Shown one piece after another: positions 37,389-40,422 of a DNA stretch of 64,000 bases. Made by a program: the position numbers and the translations under genes. The stretch comes from Streptomyces sp. NBC_01304 (GTDB lineage Bacteria > Actinomycetota > Actinomycetes > Streptomycetales > Streptomycetaceae): assembly GCF_035975855.1 (NCBI RefSeq), contig NZ_CP109055.1, forward strand, positions 434,001-498,000, given 5' to 3'. How positions within the stretch are numbered: the first letter of the stretch is position 1; each line of letters opens with the position of its first letter. The notes below the pieces were generated by a model, which was not told the DNA's origin, did no database searches, and worked only from the letters and a program-made list of their open reading frames with translations.

Positions 37389-37601
37389 GACGGAACCGTA
37401 CGATCCACCACGAAGCCCATCCGCCCCGACGCGCGGTGGCGGAGATTCGGTGCCCGAGGCGGAGCGGTCGGTGACCTGGCGTGGGCGTCACCGCCGGTCA
37501 CCATTCGACTCCGGGCCGACGAGGGCTCAGGCATGCTCTGCGGCGATCAGGTGGTCCCGCCGGTGCCGGCAGCGAGGCGGCGTCCAGCCCGAAGAAACCC
37601 G

Positions 37602-37632
37602 TTGGGCCAACCACGGCGACCCCTGCTAACCT
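37602..37632 (+). promoter_or_regulatory. putative promoter before the attenuator leader
   Basis: TTGGGC at 37602-37607 and an extended -10 (TGCTAACCT, with TAACCT at 37627-37632) are separated by 19 nt. This would start transcription about 30 nt before the leader-peptide start codon. Confidence 0.35.
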
Positions 37633-37669
37633 CCCGGAGGCCGTGCAACAGAACGAGGAGGTGGTACCC

Positions 37670-37720
37670 GTGAACGTATCGACATGGGTGCTCCCCTCTG
37701 GAGTCATGGTCGGGCGATAG
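37670..37720 (+). CDS. leader peptide of the alpha/beta hydrolase gene
   Basis: A very strong ribosome site (GAGGAGGTGG, 37655-37664) precedes GTG 37670. The short frame encodes VNVSTWVLPSGVMVGR and stops at TAG 37718-37720, 45 nt before the hydrolase start. Its position and strong initiation signal, and the competing hairpins over and after it, suggest a regulatory peptide on which the ribosome may stall. Confidence 0.65.
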   Translation: MNVSTWVLPSGVMVGR

Positions 37721-37765
37721 GTCGTCCGGGAGCGCCGTATTTGAGCACTCCCGAAAGGCACGACC
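37687..37765 (+). promoter_or_regulatory. translational attenuator with mutually exclusive hairpins
   Basis: Downstream of the leader stop, GGTCGT (37720-37725) pairs with ACGACC (37760-37765), and CGGGAG (37727-37732) pairs with CTCCCG (37748-37753), with an extra GC/GC pair inside. The hydrolase ribosome site GAAAGG (37753-37758) is held in the internal loop between these stems, directly before ATG 37766. The leader codons GGTGCTCCC (37687-37695) can instead pair with GGGAGCGCC (37728-37736) through nine pairs including one wobble. A ribosome paused near the leader stop would cover 37720-37732 and free the hydrolase ribosome site. Confidence 0.65.
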
Positions 37766-38500
37766 ATGCGCTTCACTTCTGAACAGCGTCTCGACGACGG
37801 CGTCCTCGAGCGCGAATTCACCCTCGGCGAGATCCCCGGCATCCTGTGGACGCCCGCGTCCGCATCCGCACCGGTCCCGCTGATCCTGATGAGCCCCCCG
37901 CCGCTCGGACTGCGCAAGGCCTACCCCCGTCTGGTGGCCCGGGCCCAGCACGCCGTGGCGGATGGCTTCGCCGTAGCCACCATCGAGCTCCCGGGAAGCG
38001 GGGACCGGCCCCGCCTGGCCACCGCCGAGCAAGCCCTCGCCGATCTGCGGCGGGTGATGCAGGCCGGCGAGCCGGTCAGCGACGAGATCATCGACGCCCT
38101 CATCCTCCCGCTCGTCGACAAGGCGGTCCCGGAGTGGCAGGCCGCCCTGGACGCACTCCTTGAGCTGCCCCAACTCGGCGGCCCGGTCGGCTACTCGGGA
38201 GGCGTGATCTCCATCGGCGTCCGCCTTGCGGTGGTCGAGCCGCGCATCGTGGCCGCCGGGCTCTTCGCCGGGAGTTTCGTGCCGCGCGCCATTCTCGAAG
38301 AGGCCCGCCAGGTCACCATTCCCCTGCACGTCCTGCTGCAGTGGGACGACGAAGGAAACGACCGGCAGGCGGCCCTGGACCTGTTCGACGCCTTCGGCTC
38401 CAAGGAAAAGACCCTGCACGCCAACATGGGCGGACACACCGGCGTCCCGCAGTTCGCGGGGGACGCCGCGGCCCAGTTCTTCACCCGGCATCTGAAGTGA
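37766..38500 (+). CDS. alpha/beta hydrolase under leader-peptide control
   Basis: The 244-residue protein has the alpha/beta-hydrolase nucleophile elbow GYSGG near residue 138, a DWDE-like acid region (LLQWDDEGNDRQAALDLFD) and the late histidine in HANMGGHTGVPQF. Strand LILMSPPPLGLRKAY supplies the oxyanion loop. It resembles dienelactone-hydrolase-type and dipeptidyl-peptidase-like esterases. Leader-peptide control is typical of ribosome-targeting-antibiotic resistance genes, so the enzyme may inactivate such a drug; this is inference. Initiation at ATG 37766 depends on the GAAAGG site embedded in the leader hairpin. Confidence 0.85.
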   Translation: MRFTSEQRLDDGVLEREFTLGEIPGILWTPASASAPVPLILMSPPPLGLRKAYPRLVARAQHAVADGFAVATIELPGSGDRPRLATAEQALADLRRVMQAGEPVSDEIIDALILPLVDKAVPEWQAALDALLELPQLGGPVGYSGGVISIGVRLAVVEPRIVAAGLFAGSFVPRAILEEARQVTIPLHVLLQWDDEGNDRQAALDLFDAFGSKEKTLHANMGGHTGVPQFAGDAAAQFFTRHLK

Positions 38501-38721: not shown

Positions 38722-38742
38722 GCTTGCCAGGAGGTGGTCACG

Positions 38743-39414
38743 GTGACGATCACAAGGCAAGGCGCGGATGCGATGCGGGTACTCCAAGGCCTTGAGGACG
38801 GCCGTTCGTCCGTACGACTGCGGGCTGCTCTCGCGGTCGGTACGACACCTGACCCGCGCTTCGTCGACAAGCTCATCGAGCGCTGCGCGATCGAGCCCGA
38901 ATTCTTCGTCCGCGACATGCTGACCTGGGCGCTCACCCGGCACCCGGTGTCCTGGACGCTCCCCGTCCTGGTCCGCGAAGTGCGCTCGGAGCAGGCGCAG
39001 GCCCGGAGCCAGGCGCTGCACACGCTGTCCAAGATCGGGGACCGGCAGGCCTGGCCGACGATCACGCGGGCGCTGTTGTCCGACGCCGACGACGAGGTGG
39101 CGCGAAGCGCCTGGCGGGCCGCGGTCGTGCTGGTGCCGGACGGCGAGGAGACGGCGTTGGCCGCGGTGTTGGCGACGCAGCTCGGGCGCGGTGAGCGGGA
39201 GACGCAGCTGAGTCTCAGCCGAGCGCTGGTCGCGCTGGGCGAGGTGATCGTGCCGGCGCTGCGAGCTGCGACGACGGCCCCCGACCCGGGGGTGCGCGTG
39301 CACGCGCACGCCACGCAACGGCTGCTGCGCGAGCCGGATGCCGGATTCGAGTACGCGATCGAGGAGGCCAAGCGCGTCGTGGCCCTCGGCGGGTCCGGCC
39401 GGGAGAGACGATAG
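38743..39414 (+). CDS. HEAT-repeat protein, partner of the MerR-HEAT regulator
   Basis: GTG 38743 is chosen because AGGAGG at 38729-38734 lies eight nt upstream. The 223-residue protein consists of HEAT-like helix pairs: SSVRLRAALAVGTTPDPRFV, FFVRDMLTWALTRHPVSW, ARSQALHTLSKIGDRQAW, EVARSAWRAAVVLVPDGEE and GVRVHAHATQRLLREPDAG. It would act as a soluble protein-binding scaffold. The downstream MerR-type gene begins three nt after its stop codon and has HEAT repeats of the same style, so the two form a tight operon. Confidence 0.85.
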   Translation: MTITRQGADAMRVLQGLEDGRSSVRLRAALAVGTTPDPRFVDKLIERCAIEPEFFVRDMLTWALTRHPVSWTLPVLVREVRSEQAQARSQALHTLSKIGDRQAWPTITRALLSDADDEVARSAWRAAVVLVPDGEETALAAVLATQLGRGERETQLSLSRALVALGEVIVPALRAATTAPDPGVRVHAHATQRLLREPDAGFEYAIEEAKRVVALGGSGRERR

Positions 39415-39417
39415 GGC

Positions 39418-40422
39418 GTGTTGATCGGTGAGGTGGCGCGACGGTCCGGGGTCAGTTCCCGCATGCTCCGGCATTACGAATCGCTCGGCCTGGTGCGGCC
39501 GTCTGGCCGTACGGGCTCCGGTTATCGGGAGTATTCCGGCGACGACATCCGGCGGATCTTCCACATCGAGAGCCTGCGGTCGCTGGGCATGTCGCTGCGT
39601 GAGATCGGGCGCGCGCTCGACGATCCCGGCTTCACGCCCTCGACGCTCGTCGACGGCCTCATCCGTCAGACACGCGACCGCATCGCGGCCGAGACCGAGC
39701 TGCTCACGCGGCTGCGCCGGATCGATGCGGCAGAGCCCACCGGTTGGGAGGACGTCCTCCAGGTCGTGGCGCTGCTGCAGGCACTGGGGTCGAAGAGCGC
39801 CGACGCGCGTCAGCGCGCGGCCCTCTCCTCGGCCGGCGAGCTGCCGGTGCCGGTGGAGGCGCTGGTCGAGGCGGCTCTGAGCGAGGGGGATCCGAACGTC
39901 GCCGGAGCCCTGCGATGGGCGCTGGCTCGATCGGGCGACGGCGCTCCGGCACTGCTGGCGGAAGGCCTCGCCTCACCGCTGGCCGCGGTCCGCGAACGTG
40001 CCGTTCAGTGCCTTGCCGAGATGCCCGGTGATGAAGCCGCCGCGCAGCTGCGGGCCGCTCTCACGAATCCCGACGTCGTGGTCCGCGGGTATGCGGCTCT
40101 GGCGCTCGGGACGCGTGGAGTCTGCGAAGCGATGCCGACGCTCATCGACATGATTGTGGAGGGAAGGAACGACACCGATGCGGCCGACGCCCTGAGTGTG
40201 CTGGCGAGCGACATCGAGGCCGCGGATCAGATCGCGACCAGGCTCGTCGACCGCCTCGCCGACGACGCCACGCAATCTCCTGCACGTGGACGGCTGACCC
40301 AAGCCCTGGCGGCCGTCCCGGGGACGACGGCGTCACATGCCCTCGTCGAGCTGTCGCATGACGAGGACCGTGCCGTTGCGTTGACCGCGGCGTACCTTCT
40401 TCAGCTACGCAGCGCACGGTGA
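39418..40422 (+). CDS. MerR-family regulator fused to HEAT repeats
   Basis: The 334-residue protein begins with a complete MerR winged helix (MLIGEVARRSGVSSRMLRHY, SLGLVRPSGRTGSGYREYSG, IRRIFHIESLRSLGMSLREI) and the dimerisation helix to about residue 105. Instead of a small effector domain it continues with about 200 residues of HEAT repeats (DPNVAGALRWALARSGDG, SPLAAVRERAVQCLAEMPG, NPDVVVRGYAALALGTRGV, DRAVALTAAYLLQL). It probably autoregulates through the dyad in the 19-bp-spaced promoter upstream of its operon. The effector may be the upstream HEAT protein or a protein signal. GTG 39418 follows the upstream stop by three nt. Confidence 0.88.
   Translation: MLIGEVARRSGVSSRMLRHYESLGLVRPSGRTGSGYREYSGDDIRRIFHIESLRSLGMSLREIGRALDDPGFTPSTLVDGLIRQTRDRIAAETELLTRLRRIDAAEPTGWEDVLQVVALLQALGSKSADARQRAALSSAGELPVPVEALVEAALSEGDPNVAGALRWALARSGDGAPALLAEGLASPLAAVRERAVQCLAEMPGDEAAAQLRAALTNPDVVVRGYAALALGTRGVCEAMPTLIDMIVEGRNDTDAADALSVLASDIEAADQIATRLVDRLADDATQSPARGRLTQALAAVPGTTASHALVELSHDEDRAVALTAAYLLQLRSAR

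Follow-up and report, generated by a model that had tools for sequence, protein, structure and literature searches.

Translational attenuators of the erm and cat type combine a short leader open reading frame (ORF), mutually exclusive stems and a masked downstream ribosome site. In E. coli, infC is autoregulated via an AUU start codon. In Streptomyces, LSAP (lincosamide-type) drugs stall ribosomes at the start codons of upstream ORFs (uORFs), and the uORF attenuators of the ARE5 ABCF genes are5sc and tiaA are predicted to act via premature transcription terminators, according to the consulted parts of PMC12421871. Riboregulation by the wblC/whiB7 uORF responds to many ribosome inhibitors in actinobacteria (PMC7157823 and PMC12421871, likewise in part).

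Here we analysed a stretch of 64,000 nucleotides from Streptomyces sp. NBC_01304 (NZ_CP109055.1, positions 434,001 to 498,000; the window), in which an alpha/beta-hydrolase gene is preceded by a leader that is one copy of an apparently undescribed actinobacterial regulatory RNA family. The leader shares its short ORF, its mutually exclusive stems and the masking of the downstream ribosome site with the erm/cat attenuators. It differs from them in that the peptide is not conserved family-wide, in that the leader ribosome site and start codon themselves form one of the pairing segments (segment 1), and in that RNAs of one kind are found upstream of five or more unrelated protein families. As in E. 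coli infC, a near-cognate start codon occurs in an initiation-factor-linked system, whereas here AUU or AUC begins a short leader and not a protein. As far as the consulted parts of the papers describe them, the are5sc and tiaA attenuators would share with this element the signal that we propose, a ribosome held at the start codon of a Streptomyces uORF; unlike their predicted premature terminators, no terminator-like site was found here and the stems flank the downstream ribosome site. A proposed uORF-mediated response to ribosome inhibitors in actinobacteria likewise recalls wblC/whiB7, but that system, in the same consulted parts, is a transcription attenuation of one regulator gene, whereas here enzyme and translation-factor genes are concerned, part of them behind WblC-like promoter geometry. 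Overall the element looks like a leader-ORF attenuator, yet it lacks the peptide-arrest feature of erm/cat and is unusual in its target range, mobility and start codons.

Among titles and the beginnings of abstracts in the literature library searched, no paper was recognised as describing the element, and the consulted parts of PMC8079986 and PMC4833913 do not show it. Eight leader peptide strings had no occurrence in the literature searched, and the papers listed there made no mention of the rifamycin-associated element. In nine loci no Rfam family covered the leader: five were searched at E up to 1, with three matches elsewhere in the loci, and four at gathering thresholds, with none. The parts of the window locus are as follows.

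37594..37632, forward strand: candidate promoter of WblC/WhiB7-like geometry (GAAACC, 3 nt, TGGGCC, 18 nt, TAACCT), two letters off the published consensus
37655..37664, forward strand: leader ribosome-binding site GAGGAGGTGG; in 139 leaders every column from GGAGGTGG on is invariant or reaches 90% identity
37655..37672, forward strand: segment 1 (leader ribosome site and start codon), forming stem P1 with segment 2; the 14 pairs from 37657 on are paired in 99.7% of cells
37670..37720, forward strand: leader ORF with GTG start, 16 codons, encoding VNVSTWVLPSGVMVGR and a stop; the commonest peptide in relatives is VNAVSTWVLPSGVTVGR
37683..37698, forward strand: segment 2 (leader codons), pairing with segment 1 in P1 or, through 37687-37695, with segment 3 as an antistructure (fold and alignment)
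37712..37727, forward strand: hairpin H (GGGCGA/TCGTCC) across the leader stop codon; covariation not significant
37720..37725, forward strand: 5' arm of stem P4, GGTCGT (pairing and covariation)
37727..37736, forward strand: segment 3, CGGGAGCGCC, whose partner is segment 2 or segment 4 (pairing, alignment)
37748..37753, forward strand: segment 4, CTCCCG, the 3' arm of stem P3 (pairing and covariation)
37753..37758, forward strand: hydrolase ribosome-binding site GAAAGG, between P3 and P4 (sequence, alignment)
37760..37765, forward strand: 3' arm of P4, ACGACC, adjoining the hydrolase start codon (pairing and covariation)
37766..38500, forward strand: alpha/beta-hydrolase-fold protein of 244 aa with Ser144, Asp194/195 and His224 (fold and alignment)

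The earlier note had described a 16-codon leader frame with the ribosome site GAGGAGGTGG whose stop lies 45 nt before the hydrolase ATG at 37766, a GAAAGG between two stems (GGTCGT/ACGACC and CGGGAG/CTCCCG), and an alternative pairing of the left part of this hairpin with leader codons. We found the frame where it had been placed, all four arms (those of P3 at 37727-37732 and 37748-37753) and the complementarity between GGTGCTCCC (37687-37695) and GGGAGCGCC (37728-37736). The minimum-energy fold contains a further hairpin that the note had missed, in which 37655-37672 pair with 37683-37698 and hide the leader's own ribosome site and start codon. The segment pairings 1:2, 2:3 and 3:4 are therefore in competition. 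The fold of 37640-37800 has a z value of -2.57, with equal stability in 2 of 200 shuffles. The window has ATGGTCG where most relatives have ACGGTCG; in its predicted equilibrium fold the hydrolase start region is paired with leader codons and not with GGTCGT, whereas pairing with GGTCGT prevails in the predicted folds of a class-1 sample of 40. Downstream of the hydrolase, at 38734-40422, the window encodes a HEAT-repeat protein and then a MerR regulator with HEAT repeats.

At E 0.001 the hydrolase has relatives in 272 of 392 same-genus genomes. Out of 500 confirmed hydrolase loci, the best 80 span Streptomyces, Micromonospora, Nonomuraea, Nocardia, Kutzneria, Georgenia, Parafrankia and others. 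Selection by the hydrolase alone gave 110 loci (the closest relatives, approximately 80-90% identical, plus the window's own) with 102 distinct upstream sequences. In the search for the leader before related hydrolases that the earlier note had proposed, it was present by reading and pattern in all 102, the window's included, and in 20 out of 20 harder cases, hydrolases from genomes without an exact pattern match, it was found by the covariance model. The exact leader pattern itself occurred in 173 of the 392 same-genus genomes, the reversed-pattern control giving 0 in every row. A further 43 loci (L111-L153) were selected by the leader and are not counted as evidence; in all 43 the leader is followed by the hydrolase or, where the contig ends, by its first part. 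An alignment of 139 distinct leaders (A1), gathered through either the hydrolase or the leader, shows identity of at least 90% at most of the window's 112 positions. Identity at four-fold sites in the final 11 leader codons is 92% when pooled over 135 leaders (69-100% for single codons); for the hydrolase it is 77% over 131 proteins, with a column median of 82% and the top tenth of columns above 94%. This indicates that the leader RNA itself is probably under constraint, though some hydrolase columns are equally conserved. An intact leader also stands before shortened, remnant or split coding sequences at L142, L143, L302, L328 and L379.

The family extends well beyond these hydrolases. The A1 covariance model matched 98 of 394 genomes of the class, including a second, diverged group. 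Behind 40 weaker matches of this model, reading, motif and BLAST identified 20 Rox, 10 hydrolase, 8 GNAT (acetyltransferase) and 2 patatin-like genes. One Rox protein was scored (L187) and reached 831 bits against the cut-off of 800 of NCBIfam NF033145 (rifampin monooxygenase), also matching the solved Rox 5vqb; the remaining Rox proteins were assigned by motif or by BLAST to L188. A second model, built on an alignment of 43 rows (A2), matched 168 of 397 genomes of another order. From its matches we took 90 loci, 30 supplied by the search and 60 chosen for spread (L273 being the same place as L186), and found 43 Rox, 30 hydrolase, 9 GNAT and 6 patatin-like genes downstream, with two unclassified (L297 and L328; at L328 an N-terminal remnant stands alone behind the leader). 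In a sample of the phylum whose make-up by class is not given, 17 of 396 genomes matched, all 17 in the window's own class.

Translation factors recur among the genes of the family. A gene for initiation factor IF-1 (infA) lies in the same fetched stretch in 21 out of 21 GNAT loci (20 distinct places), near the GNAT gene at L186, L210, L212, L214-L216, L218, L221, L273, L279, L288, L306, L308, L318, L329, L331, L332, L348-L350 and L357, and at L380 IF-1 stands directly behind the leader. Two of the IF-1 genes were scored, at 106 and 112 bits against the infA cut-off of 61. A third class of leaders, reached via weak matches, has AUU, AUC, AUA or GUC at the position of the leader start codon and precedes a PrmC-related methyltransferase. 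Ten of these 22 leaders were found with the models of AUG/GUG leaders and twelve with a model of the first ten plus one AUC hydrolase leader. Their start codons are AUU in 13, AUC in 7, AUA in 1 and GUC in 1, with AUG or GUG in none. Three of the 22 proteins were scored and all passed the TIGR03704 cut-off of 249 (417, 419 and 399 bits); for the others BLAST gave 62-75% identity to L339. An AUC start codon was also seen in four hydrolase leaders, three of which have a frame that closes. In a set made up of the window's own genome and 26 relatives, this third model matched 23 of the 27, some of the matches being class-1 or class-2 leaders. The window's own genome holds a second copy of the family (L373, G000:C1:1832506-1832632), which has AUC as its start codon and lies ahead of a PrmC-related methyltransferase gene.

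The diverged leaders allowed the stems to be examined for covariation, a check that the earlier note had put forward. The class-1 alignment A1 alone was uninformative in this respect since its stems are nearly invariant (99.3-99.6% of cells paired); the 2:3 complementarity is kept in 99.9% of its cells. In A2, the P4 duplexes of arms from the same leader have -10.30 kcal/mol against -8.85 for swapped arms (33 distinct pairs; 0 of 5000 permutations, relatedness ignored), and those of P3 have -16.07 against -15.56 kcal/mol (42 pairs; 1 of 5000 permutations, relatedness again ignored). Five arm controls with reversed or complemented arms and one control from an unrelated region were null. No significant difference between own and swapped arms was seen across A2 for P1, 2:3 or H, because these pairings hardly vary. 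The check thus came out in favour of P4 and P3 and left the other pairings without significant covariation. Unguided RNAalifold on A2 recovered 2:3, with 42 or 43 of the 43 rows paired at each of 8 pairs. Besides it RNAalifold gave only weak pairs, and P3 and P4 were not recovered, which may be due to misaligned P4 arms. These comparisons suggest that the stems around the downstream ribosome site are kept by compensatory change, and that a conserved 2:3 complementarity would be mutually exclusive with 1:2 and 3:4.

We then considered whether the leader frame is translated. In A1, 136 of the 139 frames close at TAG or TGA and three run on (L023, L048 and L120). The commonest class-1 peptide, VNAVSTWVLPSGVTVGR, occurs in 42 of 139 leaders and its internal residues vary. 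For the class-2 type, 103 distinct leaders were collected, 7 of which could not be parsed. All the 96 analysed close before segment 3, compared with 63 of 192 unused frames, in counts that ignore relatedness (97 of 97 without removal of duplicates). Even among class-2 leaders outside the commonest frame state 42 of 42 close where 23 are expected. The PrmC type behaves alike (22 of 22, against 10 of 44 for the other frames), one stop overlapping segment 3 by 2 nt. Among class-1-type hydrolases of the second order, five of the 21 frames pass segment 3 (L283, L287, L292, L322 and L324), or 4 of 24 when leaders are sorted by the type of ribosome site. Closure is thus kept while other frames close less often, which makes it probable that the leader undergoes translation and that its frame has to stop ahead of segment 3. 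Its peptide appears largely free: the class-2 frame through segment 2 and the tail shifts between seven frame combinations, the frames of codons 7-9 differ, and C-termini as unrelated as VGRLT and SRSGD stand behind the same class-2 RNA.

Published WblC promoters of S. coelicolor have the geometry GAAAWY, 3 nt, TKGMNN, 16-19 nt, TANNNT (consulted part of PMC7157823). A scan with this geometry loosened at three positions hit 57 of the 139 class-1 upstream sequences (mean of shuffles 0.1; none on the reverse strand), and these hits lie mostly 62-64 nt upstream of the leader ribosome site; as only 57 fit even the loosened pattern, most class-1 upstreams are without a strict match. The same scan hit 22 of the 43 A2 rows (shuffles 0.0), 27 of the 90 second-order loci (A3) and 1 of the 22 PrmC-type leaders. 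A plain sigma-70 scan of the window region gave no promoter. The main text of PMC7157823, as consulted, makes no mention of infA, prmC or monooxygenase. The link to an antibiotic response that the earlier note had drawn is supported by this WblC/WhiB7-like geometry at part of the copies and by the rifampin monooxygenase behind the same RNA.

The window protein has an esterase-like fold with the Ser-Asp-His residues of a serine alpha/beta hydrolase; it matched no Pfam or NCBIfam family at E 0.001 and had no match in a defence library. Among the conserved neighbours no other protein family occurs in more than 6 of 80 loci, frames overlapping the hydrolase excepted. Hydrolase and leader are also carried by plasmids, with 40 matching records, 34 of them over at least 80% of the query. 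In the A4 alignment, class-2 hydrolases such as L190 and L208 have Gly, Ala, Phe or another residue in place of the nucleophile serine but an otherwise preserved fold. That the window hydrolase inactivates a ribosome-targeting drug, as the earlier note had suggested, is uncertain, because relatives behind the same kind of leader are without the nucleophile serine and the other targets are translation factors or act on a transcription inhibitor. At L280 the hydrolase frame is open for 558 residues, possibly as a fusion.

The Rox proteins offer a hint as to how the leader reached unrelated genes. Ahead of the Rox domain, 14 of the 20 class-2 Rox proteins carry at least 15 extra N-terminal residues (the other six have 12 or fewer). 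In eleven of the 14 this extension, of 38-43 residues, resembles the N-terminus of class-2 hydrolases: its alignment to their first 42 residues spans 37-42 positions with 49-67% identity (E 4e-6 to 2e-14, database of 8 proteins). In the second-order set an extension of at least 30 residues is present in 19 of the 42 motif-bearing Rox proteins, and 16 of these 19 match the hydrolase N-terminus at E 1e-3. With approximately 41 hydrolase-like N-terminal residues on 11 of the 20 class-2 Rox proteins, the leader has apparently moved as a cassette; judging from the sequences, the simplest reading is that the leader and the 5' end of the hydrolase gene were fused to rox.

To examine the mechanism we folded the RNA with a ribosome footprint masked at different codons, in the full leader and in the nascent RNA, that is before segment 4 exists. 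In nascent RNA without a ribosome, predicted 2:3 pairing was 0.00-0.04. With a ribosome on the start codon it took up 0.63 of segment 2 in class 1 (a sample of 40 from 132 leaders), 0.71 in class 2 (38 leaders) and 0.62 in the window, with one at codons 3, 5, 8 or 11 it was 0, with one at the last codon 0.02 in class 1 and 0.30 in class 2, and with one at the stop codon 0.00 and 0.10, respectively. In the full leader at equilibrium, on the other hand, the closed state wins unless the ribosome is at the last codon or the stop, the only positions that remove P4 and much of P3. A start-codon ribosome changes the cost of opening the downstream ribosome site by approximately 0 kcal/mol, compared with about -2 (class 1) and -4 kcal/mol (class 2) for a ribosome near the stop codon. 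In class 1, a ribosome at codons 7 and 8 changes it by -2.6 and -2.0 kcal/mol.

Nascent and equilibrium folding thus leave two readings standing, a kinetic sensor at the start codon and a sensor of late positions. We prefer the former, because it explains the conserved 2:3 complementarity, the masked leader start, the near-cognate start codons and IF-1 as a target; these modelled folds do not settle the choice. That the family is one of leader-frame RNA attenuators which sense, independently of the peptide, ribosomes held at the leader start codon seems to us about evenly balanced between right and wrong. In such a mechanism the leader would be translated, and by default 1:2 and 3:4 would form and keep translation of the downstream gene low. 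With a ribosome held on the leader start codon during RNA synthesis, segment 1 would be covered and segment 2 left free for segment 3; with segment 3 taken, segment 4 and the downstream ribosome site would stay open. A normally elongating ribosome would instead cover segment 2 and halt before segment 3. The state sensed would then be slow or arrested initiation, or slow first steps of elongation, whatever the peptide. At the hydrolase locus the WblC-type promoter may add a transcriptional layer.

The alternative that fares best has any ribosome that lingers on the last codons or the stop, through slow elongation or slow termination, cover the P4 5' arm and segment 3 and so open the hydrolase site, 1:2 merely limiting entry into the leader. 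In the masked folds this is the position that eases opening in both classes and removes P4, 92 of 103 class-2-type leaders have 8 or 13 nt between the stop codon and segment 3, and a PrmC-related methyltransferase is among the targets. We nevertheless regard it as unlikely, since it leaves the 2:3 complementarity kept in 99.9% of cells unexplained, the class-1 distance from stop to segment 3 varies by insertions, some leaders are without a stop, and class-1 codons 7-8 ease opening as much as late codons do.

Drug arrest as in ermC and cat, with the stems rearranged when a ribosome carrying the drug halts at one particular codon of VNVSTWVLPSGVMVGR, corresponds to the drug-inducible attenuators of chloramphenicol and macrolide resistance with which the earlier note had compared the architecture. 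The leader frame, the exclusive stems around the downstream ribosome site and their conservation across genera bear out the attenuator that it described; peptide-dependent arrest is not supported. The architecture is of that kind and the class-1 peptide is well conserved (VNAVSTWVLPSGVTVGR in 42 of 139), but the synonymous sites of the leader are conserved too, the class-1 peptide has variable internal residues, and the class-2 frameshifts, which yield unrelated C-termini while RNA and closure are unchanged, argue against arrest by a specific peptide. The conserved arrest peptide that is the mark of erm/cat is absent from class 2, and in class 1 the conservation of the peptide is inseparable from that of the RNA. 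We therefore consider this explanation improbable. A ligand-binding RNA with an incidental frame, whose binding site would account for the approximately 112 nt of nearly invariant primary sequence in 139 leaders and for conservation at sites that the peptide leaves free to vary, is more improbable still, given that frame closure appears selected, that the strong leader ribosome site is kept and that we read some patatin-type leaders as carrying two compensating indels. Attenuation at the TGG (Trp) codon was set aside by argument: with segment 2 covered by a ribosome at that codon, the closed state should be favoured. No terminator-like site was found in 37560-37900, which makes transcription attenuation unlikely.

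Returning to the sensor of ribosomes held at the start codon, its broader form would be a mobile, peptide-independent sensor of stalled initiation, spread through actinobacteria as a cassette of leader plus N-terminus, placing antibiotic-inactivating enzymes together with IF-1 and a PrmC-related methyltransferase under one signal, with a branch that starts at AUU or AUC. We put this forward tentatively, as a possibility that we would sooner doubt than assume. The Rox fusions suggest a route by which a regulatory RNA may pass between unrelated genes, carried with a stretch of coding sequence. If this is right, an apparently undescribed attenuator family would be common among actinobacteria, with 168 of 397 genomes of one sampled order and 98 of 394 of the class sample. 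A single translational signal would then connect rifampin monooxygenase with uncharacterised hydrolases and with translation factors, which would help to work out what the hydrolase, the PrmC-related enzyme and the GNAT-IF-1 pair do.
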